Origin: Streptosporangiaceae bacterium
GTDB lineage: Bacteria > Actinomycetota > Actinomycetes > Streptosporangiales > Streptosporangiaceae
DNA: 5,275 bases
Direction of reading: 5' to 3'
Assembly: GCA_025934635.1 (NCBI GenBank)
Contig: JAICWX010000485.1
Location: forward strand, 1-5,275
The translations under genes and the position numbers were made by a program. Shown here in pieces: positions 1 to 5,275 of this stretch (position 1 is the first letter of the stretch; every line of letters begins with the position of its first letter). Under the pieces are notes generated by a model. That model was not told the origin of the DNA. It did no database searches and worked only from the letters and a program-made list of their open reading frames with translations.

Positions 1-4
1 GAGT

Positions 5-796
5 ATGGCCGTCGAGGCCTGCCTGATCCTGCCCCCGGTCAAGGCCACCGCAGCTCCCGGCACCCGGCTGCACAGCCTGCTCCTCGACCGGGAGACAGTC
101 TGCAACCAGGTCACAGAGCTGTTCCCGGCAGTGCTGACCGCGTTCGCAGCCGCGCACAGCGCCCTCGCCCTGATCGTGGCACTGCCCCTGGTGATCGTGC
201 CGCAGCGATCGCTGCGCCATGCCGCACTGGCCGCCGCGGCCCGGACCGACGCCAAGACCGGGCTGCTGAACGCCGGCGCCTGGCAGCGCGAAGCCGCCGT
301 GGAGGTCACCCGGGCTGCCCCGGCGCAGGCTCCGCTGGCGGTCGCCATCGCCGACATCGACCACTTCAAAGCCGTCAACGACACGCACGGCCACCTCGCC
401 GGTGACGCCGTGCTCGCCGCGGTCTCCGCCGCCATGCGGGACCTGCTGCGCGACTGCGACCTGTGCGGCCGGTTCGGCGGCGAGGAATTCGCCCTGCTAC
501 TCCCCCGCACCACAGCTCCCCAGGCCCTCGAGATCACCGAGCGGATCCGCCAGGGGATCTCCCAGCTCGCCATCCCCCGGGACGGCACCGCGGCAATACG
601 AGTCACCATCTCTATCGGCGTCGCCGTCCCCAGCCAGACCTGCCGCACCCTCGATGACCTCCTCGCCGCCGCCGACCACGCCCTCTACCAAGCCAAACGC
701 AACGGCCGCGACCGCGTCATCATGGACGCAGACACCCGAGTCCTGCAGGCCAGCCAGCCGCTGCCGCTCGCGCGCACCGATATCCTGCTGGGTTAG
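5..796 (+). CDS. GGDEF diguanylate cyclase, C-terminal part of a membrane protein
   Basis: Likely makes cyclic di-GMP from two GTP at the inner face of the membrane. Numbering from the ATG at 5: a hydrophobic segment at about 39-66 is followed by a short linker and a full GGDEF domain (about 79-240). Visible motifs are RTDAKTGLLN (80-89), the metal-binding DID (117-119), FKAVND (121-126), the active-site GGEEF (158-162), TISIGVA (201-207) and ALYQAKRNGRDRV (226-238). An inhibitory I-site, R149-x-x-D152, sits at the canonical distance before GGEEF, so product inhibition is expected. No PAS, GAF or EAL domain is present. Actinobacterial relatives usually have several membrane helices before this point, and the reading frame is open to the window edge, so the ATG at 5 is probably internal and the gene partial. 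It is divergent from the recombinase cassette in strand and function and looks like host chromosome. Confidence 0.93.
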   Translation: MAVEACLILPPVKATAAPGTRLHSLLLDRETVCNQVTELFPAVLTAFAAAHSALALIVALPLVIVPQRSLRHAALAAAARTDAKTGLLNAGAWQREAAVEVTRAAPAQAPLAVAIADIDHFKAVNDTHGHLAGDAVLAAVSAAMRDLLRDCDLCGRFGGEEFALLLPRTTAPQALEITERIRQGISQLAIPRDGTAAIRVTISIGVAVPSQTCRTLDDLLAAADHALYQAKRNGRDRVIMDADTRVLQASQPLPLARTDILLG

Positions 797-811
797 TGAT
801 CAGGCGACGCT

Positions 812-829
812 AGCGGACCGATCCCCGCT
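812..829 (+). terminator. weak hairpin after the GGDEF gene
   Basis: AGCGG (812-816) can pair with CCGCT (825-829) around an 8-base loop. One extra G-C pair and one wobble pair at the base extend the stem to about 7 bp. It begins 15 bases after the stop codon. There is no T run, which is common in high-GC actinomycetes. Placement suggests a terminator, but the stem is short and could be chance in such GC-rich DNA. Confidence 0.25.
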
Positions 830-925
830 GGAAGCCGGTACCCCAACGGCTGGCCTGGCCGGTTGCTCGCCGGGCGGACCCGACTTCGATGGCGTGCCAT
901 GACTGATTCGCGAACTCGCAGCATG

Positions 926-948
926 CATTCCGCTGTTCCGGCGGAATG
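926..948. repeat. 8-bp inverted repeat
   Basis: CATTCCGC (926-933) is the exact reverse complement of GCGGAATG (941-948), separated by 7 bases. Just before it lie the palindromes TTCGCGAA (907-914) and GCATGC (921-926). No T run follows. It could be a hairpin in a transcript or a protein-binding dyad. Confidence 0.45.
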
Positions 949-973
949 ACCAGGCGGAGCGTTGTTAGCCGTC

Positions 974-1000
974 CCATCCGTCTCGCGAGAACCCGGATGG
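974..1000. repeat. stem-loop with a palindrome inside its loop
   Basis: CCATCCG (974-980) pairs with CGGATGG (994-1000). The 13-base interval contains TCTCGCGAGA (981-990), itself a perfect 10-base palindrome. The nested arrangement is unusual for random DNA, but no gene start lies close enough to make a regulatory role clear. Confidence 0.45.
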
Positions 1001-1247
1001 CGGGCGATGGGCACACCGGGAGGAGCCGGAATGCGGAATGGACGCAGATCCCGGATTCCAGCCCCTTCCCTTCCGCACCTTCCGCGGTTCCGGTCTGCCG
1101 TCATGCAACGTGCTGCTGAGAGGCTGACCGTGCTGTGGACGGGCAGCGTTTCTAGCTGCCGACTCGCCGAGAGTCCTCGCAGGCGTTGGCGACGAGTCTG
1201 CGCAAGGCGGTCCGACGCCATCATCGCGAGCATGGCGGCGTGGTGTG

Positions 1248-1281
1248 CGCCGATCCCGGCCGGTCTCGGCCGGGATCGGCG
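1248..1281. repeat. perfect 14-bp hairpin, 6-base loop
   Basis: Positions 1248-1261 (CGCCGATCCCGGCC) and 1268-1281 are exact reverse complements around the loop GGTCTC. This is the strongest secondary structure in the gene-free stretch. No T run follows on either strand, so it is either an actinomycete-style terminator without a U tail or a structural/binding site. No convincing gene ends right beside it. Confidence 0.6.
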
Positions 1282-1526
1282 GGTGCCTCGCTCAAGTACG
1301 GCCACCGCGAGCCCGTGCCGCCTCCCGCGTACTGCGGGCGCGCAGCGAGCCCGCCGCGCACGGCCGGTGGTCTTGTCCCGGTACGGCTTCTTGCCGCCGA
1401 CCTTGGCGGAGCGCTTACCTACCGGACCCAGGTTGCGGGAAGCGCATTCTCCTGCGTGCCGTGTGGCGCCATTTATAGCCGATGACGGCCGGCGGGGCTT
1501 AACGTGGAAATAGTGCGGTCTATGTT

Positions 1527-1538
1527 GGCGCATTTTGC
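1527..1538 (+). repeat. left copy of the 12-base inverted end repeat
   Basis: GGCGCATTTTGC, exactly repeated in inverted orientation at 5151-5162. The inward flanks (1542 onward and 5145 downward) also share GC..CGAGG and a nearby GCCG, with some gaps. The AT-rich core is unusual for this GC-rich region. A 12-base match is not decisive alone: about one such pair is expected by chance in a window this size. Confidence 0.5.
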
Positions 1539-1596
1539 GGCAGCGACGAGGAAGTTGCCGAGCGCCTTTCCAGGGTTGTGCTGAGGCCGGGTACCG

Positions 1597-1630
1597 GGCG
1601 ACTGGTGAACGCTCGTATTCGTCTGTGGCG
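1597..1630. other. left recombinase-core-like site (degenerate)
   Basis: GGCGACTGGTGAA (1597-1609), an 8-base spacer (1610-1617), then TTCGTCTGTGGCG (1618-1630). Read against the minus-strand version of the site at 5054-5086, the left arm matches at 9 of 13 positions and the right arm at 8 of 13, with conservation concentrated next to the spacer (CTGGTGAA and TTCNTCTG). The spacers differ. This looks like a diverged partner core site at the left end of the element. Confidence 0.35.
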
Positions 1631-1640
1631 TGTTTGGCGG

Positions 1641-1919
1641 TCAGCCTGATGTCGGGTTACCAGCTGTGATGAGAAGGGCCGGCGGCGGTGGGCGTAGGGC
1701 GGGTAACGGGCCGGGCTGGAAGAGCGGTTCGCCGTCATTGCCGCCGAGCAGGAAGGTGAAGCGGTCCAGGTCGTTGCGGAGCTGTGGCAGGCCGTAGGCG
1801 GGGTGGCCGACGAATGCGAGCAGGGATGGGGCGAGGCGGGCGGGGTCGCTGGCGATCCAGCCGGTGAGGAATTGTAGGAGCTCGGCGAGTTCAGCGGCGT
1901 CTACGATGTCGAGGTTCAT
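1641..1919 (-). CDS. small hypothetical protein, 92 aa, last gene of the cassette
   Basis: I do not recognise a named family, but the composition is that of a real protein and it resembles, from memory, small unnamed Streptomyces proteins. Residues 1-67 look like a compact helical domain: acidic/hydrophobic helices (MNLDIVDAAELAELLQF), W21, FVGHPAYG (36-43) and LRNDLDRFTFLLGGNDGEPLF (47-67). The tail (68-92) is proline-rich with weaker GC third-position bias, so it may be an added, non-conserved extension. No membrane segment or catalytic motif is seen. The purine-rich Shine-Dalgarno-like stretch (GGAAGAGGAA) lies about 15 bases before the ATG at 1919, further than usual; an in-frame ATC at 1928 would be nearer. 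Codon 72 is TTA (1706-1704), rare in actinomycetes. It starts 140 bases after the second recombinase gene, so it may be a cassette passenger or accessory factor. Confidence 0.7.
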   Translation of the reverse strand: MNLDIVDAAELAELLQFLTGWIASDPARLAPSLLAFVGHPAYGLPQLRNDLDRFTFLLGGNDGEPLFQPGPLPALRPPPPALLITAGNPTSG

Positions 1920-2016
1920 GCGGGGGATGGCTGTTTCCTCTTCCTTCGCTGGTTTTCCTGTTCCCGTAGCAGCGCGTTCTCGCCTCCAGGTCAGGGGCGC
2001 GGGAATTCCTGTCGGG

Positions 2017-2044
2017 CGGATGCCCTGTCCCCGGAGGACATCCG
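2017..2044 (-). terminator. possible hairpin terminator after the second recombinase gene
   Basis: CGGATG (2017-2022) pairs with CATCCG (2039-2044). After one mismatch, CCT (2024-2026) pairs with AGG (2035-2037), leaving an 8-base loop. It lies 15 bases past the stop codon at 2060 and before the small gene at 1919. No T run is present. It may end or attenuate the recombinase transcript, leaving the small gene separately or weakly expressed. Confidence 0.3.
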
Positions 2045-2059
2045 CTGCCCGCGGTGCCG

Positions 2060-3565
2060 TCAGCCGCCGTGGTTCTGGGGTGGATCGTGGCCTGGCCGCT
2101 GGCCTGCGGCGTACCGGCTCCAGGTGGCGCCGGCGTTGACGTGCTGGCGGGTGGTAGTGGTGTGGTGGAAGCCGAGGGCGTCGGCGATGACGGGGGCGGG
2201 GACCTGGAGGACGAGCTGGCGCAGCGCGGAGATGCGGGCGGTGCGCAGCGGCAGGCCGTGGTCGCGGAGCTGGGCGGCGATGGAGCGGTAGGAGGCGGGC
2301 TGGCCGGCGTGGCGGCCGGGGAACAGCCAGTCGCTGCCGTGGTTGGCGGGGACGTGGTCGTGGCGGGTAGCGGCGAGCTGGTGCAGCGGCGCGTCGAACG
2401 GCGCCGGGACGGGGCTGGGCGGGTCGCCGAGCCGCAGCCAGGTCTGCCCGTCGTCGTCGCGGGTCAGGTCGCCGGCGGACAGTCGCAGGATGCGGCTGAG
2501 CGGCTGGGCGTAGAGAAGCATCAGGCAGGCGGCGGCGCGGGTCTTGACGGGGATGCCGGTGCCGGTGGCGAAGCGTCGCAGCAGGTCCAGGCGGCGCTGC
2601 TGGGTGATGGCCTGCCCGGAGTAGGCCTGCTGGCGGGGGATGTCCAGGTGGCGGGGGATGTGGCCGTGCCCGGTGGCCCAGACCAGGAATGCGCGGGCGC
2701 CTTCGCGCTGGTGGGTGCCGTGGCTGGCGTAGTAGGCGTCGATGTGGGCCTGGGTGAGGGCGGCCGGCCGCACGCCCAGGCCGGCGGTCCAGGTCAGGAA
2801 GGCCTGGGCCTGGATGAACCGGCTCCTGGCGTACTGGGCGGCGGTGGTGCGCAGCGGCCCGGCGGCGGCCCTGGCCCGCATCGCCGGGAGCTGGTGCCAC
2901 AGCCCGAACTGGCGCAGCAGCCGCAGGTGCGGGTGCCCGGCCAGGGCGTCCAGCCGCCGGTCCAGCCACGTGCCGAACTCGCGCAGCTGCCTGTCGGTGG
3001 CGGGCAGCATGCCGCAGTCCACCAGCAGGTCACGCAGGTAGTGCACGGCTCGCCGCCGGGGCCAGCCATCCAGCGCCTCGTGGGTGAGCGGCAGCGTGCC
3101 GGCCGCCAGGCGGGTGAGCAGGTCGCGGATGTGCGGTTTGCCCAGCCATTCCAGCGTGGCGGATGGGCTGGCCGTGGCGGCCAGGGCATCCGCCAGCGGT
3201 TTCAGCGGCGCAGCGATGGCACCGGTCCCGTCCTCCAGCAGCCGGGCGGCCGTCCAGGCCACGGCGCACCGGCCGCATAGCCGGCTCAGTCCTCGCCGGC
3301 TACCGGGAGCCATGCCGGTTTCGGTGCCGCACTGCAGGCAGGAGAAGTCCCGGGTGATCCCGGCGCAGTCCCGGCAGATCCGCACCCCGTCACGCAGGCC
3401 GGGCAGCGCCCGGTCCGCGGTGCCGCACCCGGGACAGGTCCCGGTGGCCGACAGCGCCACATCCAGGCACGGGTAGCACAGGTGCCCCTCGGGGAAAGAA
3501 GCGGCGGGCCAGCCGTGATGCCCGCACCGGGCGCAGGTCCGCTTCTTCGGCGCCGAGGCGGTCAC
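2060..3565 (-). CDS. zinc-ribbon tyrosine-recombinase-like protein, 501 aa
   Basis: Probable second recombinase subunit of the element. The N-terminal 100 residues carry six CxxC pairs (C11/14, C30/33, C44/47, C64/67, C76/79, C97/100), enough for three four-cysteine zinc ribbons. A helical core-binding region follows (about 240-310: RFIQAQAFLTWTAGLGVRPAALTQAHIDAYY), then a recombinase-like catalytic fold: LLYAQPLSRILRLSAGDL (350-367, with R358 as candidate first arginine), ISALRQL (445-451), and VIADALGFHHTTTTRQHV (459-476). The usual HxxR histidine appears as S446, no clear beta-hairpin lysine is seen, and the tyrosine expected after the GH-like motif is H475; Y485 is the nearest tyrosine. 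Activity may therefore be altered or lost. The start is the GTG at 3565, overlapping the HTH gene's stop (GTGA), which suggests translational coupling. The open frame continues upstream to 4030, but that part is only the shadow of the neighbouring genes. Confidence 0.87.
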   Translation of the reverse strand: MTASAPKKRTCARCGHHGWPAASFPEGHLCYPCLDVALSATGTCPGCGTADRALPGLRDGVRICRDCAGITRDFSCLQCGTETGMAPGSRRGLSRLCGRCAVAWTAARLLEDGTGAIAAPLKPLADALAATASPSATLEWLGKPHIRDLLTRLAAGTLPLTHEALDGWPRRRAVHYLRDLLVDCGMLPATDRQLREFGTWLDRRLDALAGHPHLRLLRQFGLWHQLPAMRARAAAGPLRTTAAQYARSRFIQAQAFLTWTAGLGVRPAALTQAHIDAYYASHGTHQREGARAFLVWATGHGHIPRHLDIPRQQAYSGQAITQQRRLDLLRRFATGTGIPVKTRAAACLMLLYAQPLSRILRLSAGDLTRDDDGQTWLRLGDPPSPVPAPFDAPLHQLAATRHDHVPANHGSDWLFPGRHAGQPASYRSIAAQLRDHGLPLRTARISALRQLVLQVPAPVIADALGFHHTTTTRQHVNAGATWSRYAAGQRPGHDPPQNHGG

Positions 3566-3909
3566 GGCCTGGGACGCAGCTTGGCGCGGGCCGGGCGCAG
3601 CGCGCTCAGGTCCGTGACGCCGTCCTTGCCGCCGCTGCTGCCGGCGGCGCGGCGGCGGGCCGGGACGTTCTCGGCGCGGGTGGCGATCAGCTGCGCCGGG
3701 GTGACGCCGAAGATGTCGCACAGCGCGGCGAGCACCGGCAGCGACAGCCGCTCCGGTGTCTGGGTGACCAGCCGCCACACCTGCACCGACGACAGCGTGA
3801 TACCCCGCTCGGCCAGCAGCGGCTCCAGGTCCGACGCGTTGAACAGCCCGGCGGCGGCCATCACCTCCCGCAGCCGCCACTGGTAGCTGACCTGCCGCTT
3901 GGCCGCCAT
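3562..3909 (-). CDS. XRE/Cro-type helix-turn-helix protein, 115 aa
   Basis: Small DNA-binding protein of the Cro/C1 (XRE) type. The HTH region spans about residues 12-75: RLREVMAAAG, then LLAERGITLSSVQVWRLVTQ (31-50) covering the turn and recognition helix, and the typical LSLPVLAALCDIFGVTPAQLI (55-75). The C-terminal 40 residues are basic, rich in arginine and proline, and probably disordered. It sits between two recombinase genes: its ATG shares a base with the upstream stop (TGATG) and its stop overlaps the next GTG. The Shine-Dalgarno AAGGAG ends 6 bases before the ATG at 3909; the GTG at 3912 would be only 3 bases away, so 3909 is preferred. Likely roles are autoregulation of the operon through the palindromes at 5054-5086, or an architectural role in recombination like an excisionase or TnpC. 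The family call is firm; the role is inferred. Confidence 0.9.
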   Translation of the reverse strand: MAAKRQVSYQWRLREVMAAAGLFNASDLEPLLAERGITLSSVQVWRLVTQTPERLSLPVLAALCDIFGVTPAQLIATRAENVPARRRAAGSSGGKDGVTDLSALRPARAKLRPRP

Positions 3910-5033
3910 CACGTGCTCCTTCCCGGCCGCATCGCCGCGGCCGCCGTCGCGTCCAGCGCCCGCCGCAGCGTCCGGGTCCGGAAGTCCGAGGACACGCAGG
4001 TGTAGATCGCGGTGGTGGAGGCGTGCTCATGGCCGGCCTGCTGCTGCACGAACAGCGGATCCCAGCCGCCCTCGATCAGGTGGGTGACATACGAGCGGCG
4101 CAGCGAGTGGAAATCCAGCCCCTCATCCAGGCCCAGCGCGTCCCGGTACTCACCCAGCCGCTTGTGCAGCGTCCCCGGCCCGATCCGCGGGCCGCGCTCG
4201 GACGGCCACAGCGCCGCCGACTCCCCGGCCGATGCCATCAGCGGCCGGGCCTCGGCGATCCACTGGGCCAGCACCTCGGGCACCCAGTCCCACACGGTCA
4301 GCACGCTGCGGTGCTTCGGCGGCGATCCCTTCATCGCCTTGCCGAACCTCACCTGGCACACCCCGTACTCCCCGAACTCCGGCGCATGCGGGTTCGGCCC
4401 GAAGTCGGCCACATCCAGCATCGCCGCCTCGGTGCGGCGCAGCCCGAACCCGTACGCCACCTTCAGCGCCGCCGCGTCCCGGAACGCCGGCAGCCACCCC
4501 TTGCGCCCGCCGCCGCGGACCCGCACTGCCTGCTCGTCCGCATGGTCGAACAGCGCCTCCAGCTCATCGAGGGTGAACGCCCGCTTGCGCGGGTCCGCCT
4601 CGTTCTGCTGGACATGGACCGCGGTGTTCCAGTCGTGGACCACCTGGACCGGATGGGTGCCGAACCGGGCCTGGCACTGATCGGCCCAGCCGTAGGCCGG
4701 ATCGGTCGCATACCGGCAGAACGCCGACACCGACGAAGCGTGAGCGCGGACCGTCGAGCGCGCCAGCCCCTTCACCCCCCGCATGTCCCCCAGCCACTCA
4801 TCGAGCATCTGCGGCGCCCACTGCCACGGCAGGGCATCAGCGTGGCCGGCGAACGCCCGCACCATCGCCTGCCGGCGGCCGATCGTGGAGAACGCCAGGT
4901 TCCGGGCCAGCTGCTGCGCCCGCCACCCCTCCAGCATCGCGGCGAACACCTGCTCGCCGGGATGCAGCAGCGGCACCCCCGCCGCCAGGTGCAGGCCCGC
5001 CGATCCCGGCATCCCGTCCTGCCCCACGCCCAC
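3909..5033 (-). CDS. tyrosine recombinase (integrase/XerC-D type), 374 aa
   Basis: Site-specific recombinase predicted to cut and rejoin DNA through a tyrosine-DNA linkage. A SAM-like core-binding domain occupies about residues 28-115 (STIGRRQAMVRAFAGHA; LARSTVRAHASSVSAFCRYA). The catalytic domain (about 150-350) shows all the classic residues: R199 in YGFGLRRTEAAML, a lysine in VRFGKAMKG (K232 or nearby), H309 and R312 in FHSLRRSYVTHL, H335 in QQAGHEHASTTAIY, and nucleophile Y344. Length is close to Tn554 TnpA (about 361 aa, from memory). Start choice: GGAGG at 5047-5043 is 9 bases before the GTG at 5033 but touches the GTG at 5042, so 5033 is preferred over a 377-residue form. It is the first gene of the minus-strand cassette and its stop overlaps the HTH gene. 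Expected to be the main catalytic subunit. Confidence 0.93.
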   Translation of the reverse strand: MGVGQDGMPGSAGLHLAAGVPLLHPGEQVFAAMLEGWRAQQLARNLAFSTIGRRQAMVRAFAGHADALPWQWAPQMLDEWLGDMRGVKGLARSTVRAHASSVSAFCRYATDPAYGWADQCQARFGTHPVQVVHDWNTAVHVQQNEADPRKRAFTLDELEALFDHADEQAVRVRGGGRKGWLPAFRDAAALKVAYGFGLRRTEAAMLDVADFGPNPHAPEFGEYGVCQVRFGKAMKGSPPKHRSVLTVWDWVPEVLAQWIAEARPLMASAGESAALWPSERGPRIGPGTLHKRLGEYRDALGLDEGLDFHSLRRSYVTHLIEGGWDPLFVQQQAGHEHASTTAIYTCVSSDFRTRTLRRALDATAAAAMRPGRST

Positions 5034-5042
5034 CGCGACCAC

Positions 5043-5047
5043 CCTCC
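5043..5047 (-). promoter_or_regulatory. ribosome binding site deciding the first recombinase start
   Basis: GGAGG on the minus strand. It is 9 bases before the GTG at 5033 and directly adjacent to the GTG at 5042, which argues for the shorter protein. It lies just 6 bases from the inverted repeat ending at 5054, so a protein bound there could affect expression. Confidence 0.6.
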
Positions 5048-5053
5048 GTCACT

Positions 5054-5086
5054 TACATCAGATGAAGGAATCTTTCACCAGATGTA
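5054..5086. promoter_or_regulatory. 13-bp inverted repeat with 7-bp spacer: candidate recombinase core site or HTH operator
   Basis: TACATCAGATGAA (5054-5066) and TTCACCAGATGTA (5074-5086) are inverted repeats matching at 11 of 13 positions around GGAATCT (5067-5073). Two 13-bp arms and a 6-8 bp spacer is the geometry of tyrosine-recombinase core sites (loxP and FRT have 13-bp arms). Each arm is also nearly self-palindromic (TTCATC-N-GATGAA), with centres exactly 20 bp apart, which equally suits two operator sites for the XRE-type protein. The position, directly upstream of the first recombinase gene, fits either role. Confidence 0.55.
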
Positions 5087-5098
5087 GGCGGAGCGCAA
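5069..5098 (-). promoter_or_regulatory. weak candidate promoter of the recombinase operon
   Basis: On the minus strand, TTGCGC (5098-5093) is followed after 18 bases by AAGATT (5074-5069), a poor match to a sigma-70-type pair. It would start transcription about 30 bases before the GTG at 5033 and would be covered by the inverted repeat at 5054-5086, allowing autorepression. The match is weak and other AT-rich hexamers lie upstream. Confidence 0.2.
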
Positions 5099-5140
5099 CC
5101 CGGCAGGCAGCAGCCCCGCCGCCACGCCGGCCAGCCCCTC

Positions 5141-5164
5141 GCGGCGATTTGCAAAATGCGCCGC
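5141..5164. repeat. right end repeat within a near-perfect dyad
   Basis: Contains the right copy of the 12-base end repeat (5151-5162, inverse of 1527-1538). The copy lies inside a larger dyad: GCGGCG-ATTT (5141-5150) pairs with AAAT-CGCCGC (5154-5164, one bulged G) around GCA, giving 10-bp arms. The left copy lacks the second arm. This may be a recombinase or HTH binding site at the element end. Confidence 0.45.
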
Positions 5165-5249
5165 ACTGAACAACACCCAGCATCATTTAATGCACCTCAG
5201 CGGCACTATTCATGACCATCCAGGCGCCGCATCAAAACCATTCCAGTCC

Positions 5250-5262
5250 TTCATCAGATGAA
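5250..5262. repeat. perfect odd palindrome, third copy of the arm motif
   Basis: TTCATC-A-GATGAA is a perfect 6+1+6 palindrome. It shares 12 of 13 bases with the arm at 5054-5066, including the 11-base string CATCAGATGAA. Its centre is 196 bp from that arm. It lies beyond the outermost inverted end block, so it may be a distal operator, or a sign that the element extends past 5210. Confidence 0.5.
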
Positions 5263-5275
5263 ACCCGCGCTGTTA

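Follow-up and report, generated by a model that had tools for sequence, protein, structure and literature searches.

Several described groups of mobile elements resemble the three coupled genes orf1, orf2 and orf3 (together the trio) that lie in a 5,275-nucleotide stretch of DNA from a Streptosporangiaceae bacterium (assembly GCA_025934635.1, contig JAICWX010000485.1, positions 1 to 5,275), called the window here as a whole. The layout of the trio is already in print: a 2018 paper described 'XER modules' on Antarctic Arthrobacter plasmids as putative novel integrative elements (PMC6305408). In the accessible passages of that paper the modules have a similar core of XerD, XRE regulator and XerC, accompanied by passengers, and 99% identical elements occur on two plasmids; they differ in being located between umuC and umuD, 'dif' is absent from the text, and these passages hold no analysis of ends, target or orf3. 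The likeness to these modules (record MH067969) is one of gene order, as given in the paper's text. A literature search by title and abstract, mostly without subscription papers, found no account of element ends, of dif targeting by or dif flanking of such trios, of a degenerate orf3 or of a wide distribution.

Actinobacterial Tn554-like elements were defined in 2012 (PMC3414803). According to the available parts of that paper they also pair a short with a long recombinase-like gene, in many cases accompanied by a third, small one, and occur on actinobacterial plasmids and chromosomes, but the long partner of 611–828 amino acids (aa) is counted as a tyrosine-based site-specific recombinase (TBSSR) and the third gene, if any, is TnpC. 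Recombinase-in-trio (RIT) elements are three-gene elements as well, but in the excerpts of PMC8138268 and PMC3414803 RitA, RitB and RitC are all recombinases, whereas the middle gene here encodes an XRE-type protein, and three tandem tyrosine recombinases are not present. The nearest functional model, on the portions of PMC10214605 and PMC5385486 at hand, is provided by the strand-biased elements (SEs) and GInts, which are target-specific and have an operon of several recombinase-fold proteins, one of them without the full catalytic motif (Tfp or GinC). Unlike the trio, with its three core genes of which one has the motif, they have four genes with two RHRY recombinases, and Srap or GinD instead of XRE; SEs are found in Gammaproteobacteria. 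The 6-bp footprint of SEs may be compared with a short variable stretch at the left end of the trio, a comparison for which the only circle record, described below, is doubtful.

The three genes are arranged as follows:

3909..5033, minus strand: orf1, catalytic tyrosine recombinase (PF00589, E 8.7e-19)
3562..3909, minus strand: orf2, XRE/Cro-C1 helix-turn-helix protein, 115 aa from the ATG at 3909 (HTH_26, E 1.7e-11)
2060..3565, minus strand: orf3, 501 aa, N-terminal zinc-ribbon cysteines and a degenerate tyrosine-recombinase fold

Orf1 has 377 aa when read from a GTG at 5042; the GTG at 5033 is better positioned, behind GGAGG. In 36 of 36 aligned members orf1 retains the whole set of five tested catalytic positions (R, H, R, H, Y). 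At the orf1/orf2 junction (GTGATGG) the TGA of orf1 overlaps the ATG of orf2 (TGATG), and at the orf2/orf3 junction (CCGTGACC) the GTG of orf3 overlaps the TGA of orf2 (GTGA). A preliminary description of this DNA had reported three coupled minus-strand genes with these junctions, the first encoding a tyrosine recombinase and the second an XRE-type protein, and all of this is present as described. It had further taken the stop-start coupling to imply a fixed ratio and joint function; joint expression is indeed likely, whereas coupling does not demonstrate a fixed ratio.

We consider the trio to be, very probably, the movement module of a site-specific integrative element of small size (~3.7 kb). 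Comparison of related loci, designated by L numbers, shows conserved ends, near-identical copies at new places and lineage-specific targets, namely dif flanks, gene 3' ends and CRISPR spacers. Because near-identical copies stand at different places in one genome, the trio, as judged from alignments, is the core of a mobile element that inserts at particular sites in actinobacterial genomes. Two contigs of one genome share 99.95% identity over 4083 bp with different flanks (L059/L060). Further pairs of copies within one genome, again with different flanks, have 99.5% identity over 3791 bp, of which the first part is a similar target gene (L057/L058), and 95.5% identity over 6289 bp (L001/L002). 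Two plasmids of Paenarthrobacter sp. YJN-5 carry copies that are 99.9% identical over 4744 bp (L053/L054). In addition, plasmid pA of P. ureafaciens AT contains two tandem copies with a period of 4714 bp (L007), and a 4712-bp 'plasmid' of the same strain, pD (L006), is the same unit.

The trio also behaves as a conserved, co-evolving unit in Actinomycetota, as far as sampled genomes and plasmids indicate. A search with orf3 only in 394 genomes of one class (E <= 1e-20, up to three candidates per genome scored) found relatives in at least 52, and orf3 matches were present in 251 of 72,556 plasmid records. Of 29 loci fetched by orf3 alone for a synteny count (L020–L048), 25 encode orf2 on the same strand and 24 contain all or part of orf1. 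Both are missing in L025 (contig edge) and in L030 and L036 (partial orf3), orf2 in the remnant L048, and orf1 in L031 and L045; in the last case the first stretch was too short, and the wider stretch L113 contains orf1. As loci were mostly fetched through orf3, counts of orf3 behind orf1 would be circular evidence and were set aside. Annotated plasmid copies that were opened have the same gene order with overlaps or gaps of a few bases, one trio of L008 having a 61-bp gap before orf3. The distance matrices of orf1 and orf3 correlate with r 0.84 over 46 pairs, the highest value in 999 permutations being 0.15. The gene-neighbourhood comparison proposed in the preliminary description, which named isolated homologues or a trio never differing in presence between closely related strains as grounds for abandoning its proposal, thus returned a syntenic trio with near-identical copies at different loci. 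The closest full-length proteins have 92% identity; order searches around genomes G253 and G341 for closer whole-genome relatives gave the same 35 genomes with 53% identity at best, and one scan of viral contigs gave no relative.

Where do these elements insert? The site dif is used by bacteria, through XerCD, to separate chromosomes, and the two arms of a dif-like site are taken here to be those of XerC and XerD. A sequence was called dif-like when at least 18 of 21 fixed positions matched, the best score elsewhere being 17/21. Such a site is found right at the left end of the element, on the XerD side and in one orientation, 245–288 bp upstream of orf1, in 10 of 53 unique loci. Among four further plasmids opened for their likeness to L053 it is present in three (L130–L132; 19–20 of 21 positions) and absent in L129. 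The opposite orientation occurs in L107 and L117, 213 bp and 464 bp upstream of the start of the orf1 profile (in L117 the open frame reaches nearer), and at the second, minus-strand trio of L008, where two divergent trios of different lineages flank one common dif-like site on the Arthrobacter plasmid p232 (L008:3112-9440). In total 16 of 57 loci examined are dif-adjacent, with two lineages on opposite sides of dif. In the midpoint-drawn orf1 tree a branch with support 100/99 unites 11 rows, nine of them dif-adjacent, including L006, the circle form of the L007 element; the other two are L102 (no dif within 393 bp) and L105 (contig ends at 261 bp). L107, L117 and the minus-strand trio of L008 form a separate supported group (98/98), and L010, also dif-adjacent, stands alone on a long branch.

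The dif pattern CGATAANNNNCATTATGT occurs exactly once in each of seven genomes, always beside a trio, and a reversed-pattern control gave 0; these genomes were chosen for a dif-adjacent trio, so that 7/7 speaks to the uniqueness of the site and not to the frequency of targeting. In several members 6–7 variable bases separate the XerD-side arm from an inner arm such as CTGCGTAT. We infer that XerD-side arm, variable bases and inner arm together would make up the expected core site of a recombinase, with the dif half as outer arm. Integrative mobile elements exploiting Xer (IMEX) integrate into dif by means of the host Xer recombinases. The trio encodes its own recombinase and adjoins an unsplit dif-like site, both of which speak against IMEX, while the acting enzyme cannot be read from the sequence. 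Insertion sequences of the IS1202 family that target pdif or dif, as described in the parts of PMC10132070 consulted, similarly insert beside dif in one orientation, but use a DDE transposase, produce target duplications and are known there from Acinetobacter.

The left flank in the plasmid of L055 (strain AT5) is 100% identical to that in pA over 1232 bp, and the left-end sequence is shared as well, after which different genes follow. In L055:3477-5800, at the same dif as the L007 element, left-end sequence precedes a CopG/Doc pair and a further integrase of phage type, behind which a second dif-like sequence (17/21) is found; the arrangement resembles a dif module.

Other lineages are found at other targets. 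L060 adjoins the 3' end of a gene for a tyrosine recombinase (PF00589, E 1.1e-14), and L059, its twin, follows a fragment of a second such gene (E 3.3e-8). L057 stands at the 3' end of an HATPase_c_2 gene (E 2e-10), with L058 behind a similar reading frame. Among the loci scanned, two lie inside CRISPR arrays, L068 with 57 and 27 repeats and L069 with 1 and 22 repeats on its two sides (L023 is part of the L069 stretch); the arrays belong to two different genomes and have different repeats. In L068 orf3 is broken and a run of N, an assembly gap, separates the right end from the repeats. In L069 the CRISPR repeat and the inner arm are 38 nt apart, which corresponds to an ordinary spacer of 32 nt and 6 further bases, and the next repeat, in which one base is changed, starts directly at the right end. 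Provided that the 6 bases represent the crossover stretch, this fits a precise insertion that did not duplicate a long piece of the target. In both L068 and L069 CATATCTTGCT or CATAACTCGCT precedes the left end, much like the left flank of L001 and L004.

The ends of the element and the sequences next to them in the window are:

1601..1625, plus strand: right end, ACTGG-N8-CGTATTC-N2-CTG (one match; 0 in 200 shuffles)
5235..5275, minus strand: left end, inner arm GCGCGGGTT and then palindrome TCATCTGATGA; outer boundary at, or a few bases beyond, the window edge
5055..5085, minus strand: palindrome pair with centres 20 bp apart directly upstream of orf1, probable orf2 operator
1641..1919, minus strand: orf4, 92-aa open reading frame right inside the right end, possible cargo with weak gene evidence

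The right-end motif was derived from the window, L001, L101, L068 and L069, so that L004, L070 and L066 are independent checks. In a scan downstream of the trio in 11 loci it was found with zero mismatches in L004, L068, L070 and L101, with one in L069 and with two in L066. The exact motif was listed for no more than seven of 132 loci (L003, L004, L005, L015, L068, L070 and L101), of which L015 is L004 again, L003 is a 99% copy and L005 has a broken orf3 copy. On the left, the final 25 bases of the window, compared by eye, resemble the left ends of L068 and L069, with GCGCGGGTT or similar followed by TCATCnGATGA. The motif CATCNGATG is present at 5252-5260 and occurs twice in the window (0.07 expected). 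Across 47 loci its density in the 320 bp before orf1 exceeds that elsewhere 94-fold (39 in 14.9 kb as compared to 17 in 609 kb), and 29 of the 47 have at least one copy there; the motif was picked after inspection of those upstream regions, to which these figures have to be related. Orf2 probably binds the palindromes upstream of orf1, which would then be its operator. The window element would measure ~3.7 kb, from 1601 to 5275 or slightly past, taking in the possible orf4, and the span of 2060..5033 given in the preliminary description is too short, since the element extends on both sides, from 1601 to at least 5275. Orf4 has no match in PHROGs or PADLOC and no convincing relative in the loci tested.

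Several points weigh against reading the trio as the core of a site-specific integrative element with dif as one of its targets. No dif site was found in 41 of the 57 loci, some of which are a tandem copy, a circle or a contig edge without left flank, and the nearest orf1 relatives of the window are not dif-adjacent. The window stops at the left end, and the flank that would show its own target lies beyond it. The right-end motif has at least 3 mismatches in five of the 11 scanned loci (L009, L129, L067, L071 and L100). The record of pD starts exactly at the repeat boundary and is 2 bp short of the tandem junction, for which reason the 'circle' may be an assembly product and not a real replicon, and it is not used as proof of a circle. 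Whole-locus searches with L053, L054, L101, L009 and L010 gave no exact empty site among the matches listed; pACHL01 was considered as one and rejected, both flanks of L054 being present there with other genes between them. Mobility is read from sequence comparison, movement itself not having been observed.

How could such a trio move? Orf1 would exchange the strands at a site composed of an outer arm contributed by the target (e.g. the XerD half of dif), a short spacer for crossover and an inner arm that belongs to the element. Orf3 would be a DNA-binding, largely non-catalytic partner with recombinase fold that helps to hold the ends, and orf2, bound to the palindromes, would repress the operon promoter and, via the palindrome right inside the left end, may also act on the recombination complex. 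As an alternative it could be imagined that the element copies itself out: orf1 alone would cleave, and a single strand exchange would lead to a joined intermediate, replication and a circle while the donor stays in place, as proposed for SEs. This route is a serious, if rather doubtful, candidate. The combination of one catalytic and one degenerate subunit and the tandem copies in L007 would suit it, and SEs and GInts also have a core-binding protein without catalytic motif (Tfp and GinC, in the available text of PMC10214605); on the other hand SEs possess, in addition to Tfp, a pair of RHRY recombinases, and the circle record is doubtful. With still more reserve, we tentatively suggest a widespread actinobacterial class with one catalytic recombinase and a dead zinc-ribbon partner, which would take a dif half-site as outer arm (one lineage on the XerD side, another on the other side), park at the termini of chromosomes and at resolution sites of plasmids while leaving dif unbroken, and move by single-strand exchange followed by replication.

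Less likely still, and in our view improbable, is an ordinary Tn554-like element, with orf3 as a second active recombinase whose tyrosine (Y485) is displaced and orf2 as an analogue of TnpC. The orf3 of the window has no Pfam match over a cut-off, and 10 of 50 orf3 relatives have a weak match to PF00589 (best E 1.4e-4). All 50 rows listed by Foldseek with orf3 are tyrosine recombinases (best E 3.0e-4), with E <= 0.001 for 2 matches only and TM-scores of 0.16 to 0.27 by query length. A direct profile alignment with orf1 gave no meaningful score (hhalign probability 1.2%), so that the recombinase kinship of orf3 rests on the fold and the weak Pfam matches. In favor of activity, 41 of the 43 aligned members with a residue at the place of Y485 have Y there and the other 2 have F, and R358, R449, H467 and Y485 are invariant or nearly so among 50 relatives of the window orf3. 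Against it, the box-II His is kept in 0 of 44 aligned members, the box-II Arg is missing in 28 of 44, and none of 43 has a Tyr at the usual place in either of two fitting columns, Y485 lying ~10 residues beyond. Orf3 is therefore probably a non-catalytic partner with a tyrosine-recombinase fold, the displaced Y485 leaving some doubt; its fold bears out the 'divergent recombinase-like' protein of the preliminary description, whereas the catalytic signature is absent and a working recombinase is not likely. Long members have an additional N-terminal stretch on orf3 (open frames of 740–831 aa).

The second pillar of a Tn554-like reading, the third protein, does not fit either: orf2 is an XRE protein by its HTH_26 match and has no match to DUF6262, which we take to be the TnpC family. 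Site-specific insertion, at dif and at other lineage-specific sites, is shared with Tn554. The plasmids pBD2, pREL1, pRHL2 and pRHL3, named in PMC3414803 as carriers of Tn554-like elements, have no orf3 match, an empty result that alone is not conclusive, and the similarity of their recombinase genes to orf1 is only generic. The exception is pREL1, which also has a remnant of the present family with broken orf1 and orf2 (L093). The view that the trio is a distinct mobile actinobacterial element type, related to Tn554-like and RIT elements and the same as neither, is supported. On a Streptomyces plasmid (L099:13508-16395) a different trio was seen, consisting of a tyrosine recombinase, a DUF6262 protein and a HEAT-repeat protein; the same region has an orf1-orf2 pair with IS21 genes in the place of orf3. 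That the trio is instead an immobile resident resolution or stability module, for instance for plasmid multimers, and stands near dif for that reason is very improbable: the many plasmid copies, some abutting dif, would agree with it, but copies stand beside the sole dif-pattern match of seven genomes, in CRISPR arrays and at 3' ends of recombinase and ATPase genes, they have sharp ends and near-identical interiors, and most loci lie away from dif.

Taken as the movement module of an integrative element, a trio whose members are annotated in records as site-specific integrase, HTH regulator and 'recombinase XerD' or hypothetical protein is delimited and would be explained, and the end motifs would allow automatic annotation of such elements. 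The dif-flanking lineages suggest that the site of chromosome resolution serves as a harmless landing place for elements that encode a recombinase of their own. If orf3 is truly dead, the trio would also be a test case for recombination with one active subunit type.

Scans of the window with Rfam and for tRNA genes, as well as with PADLOC, gave no matches. Outside the element, beyond its right end, lies a GGDEF diguanylate cyclase gene at 5-796 on the plus strand, the open frame of which reaches the left edge of the window.

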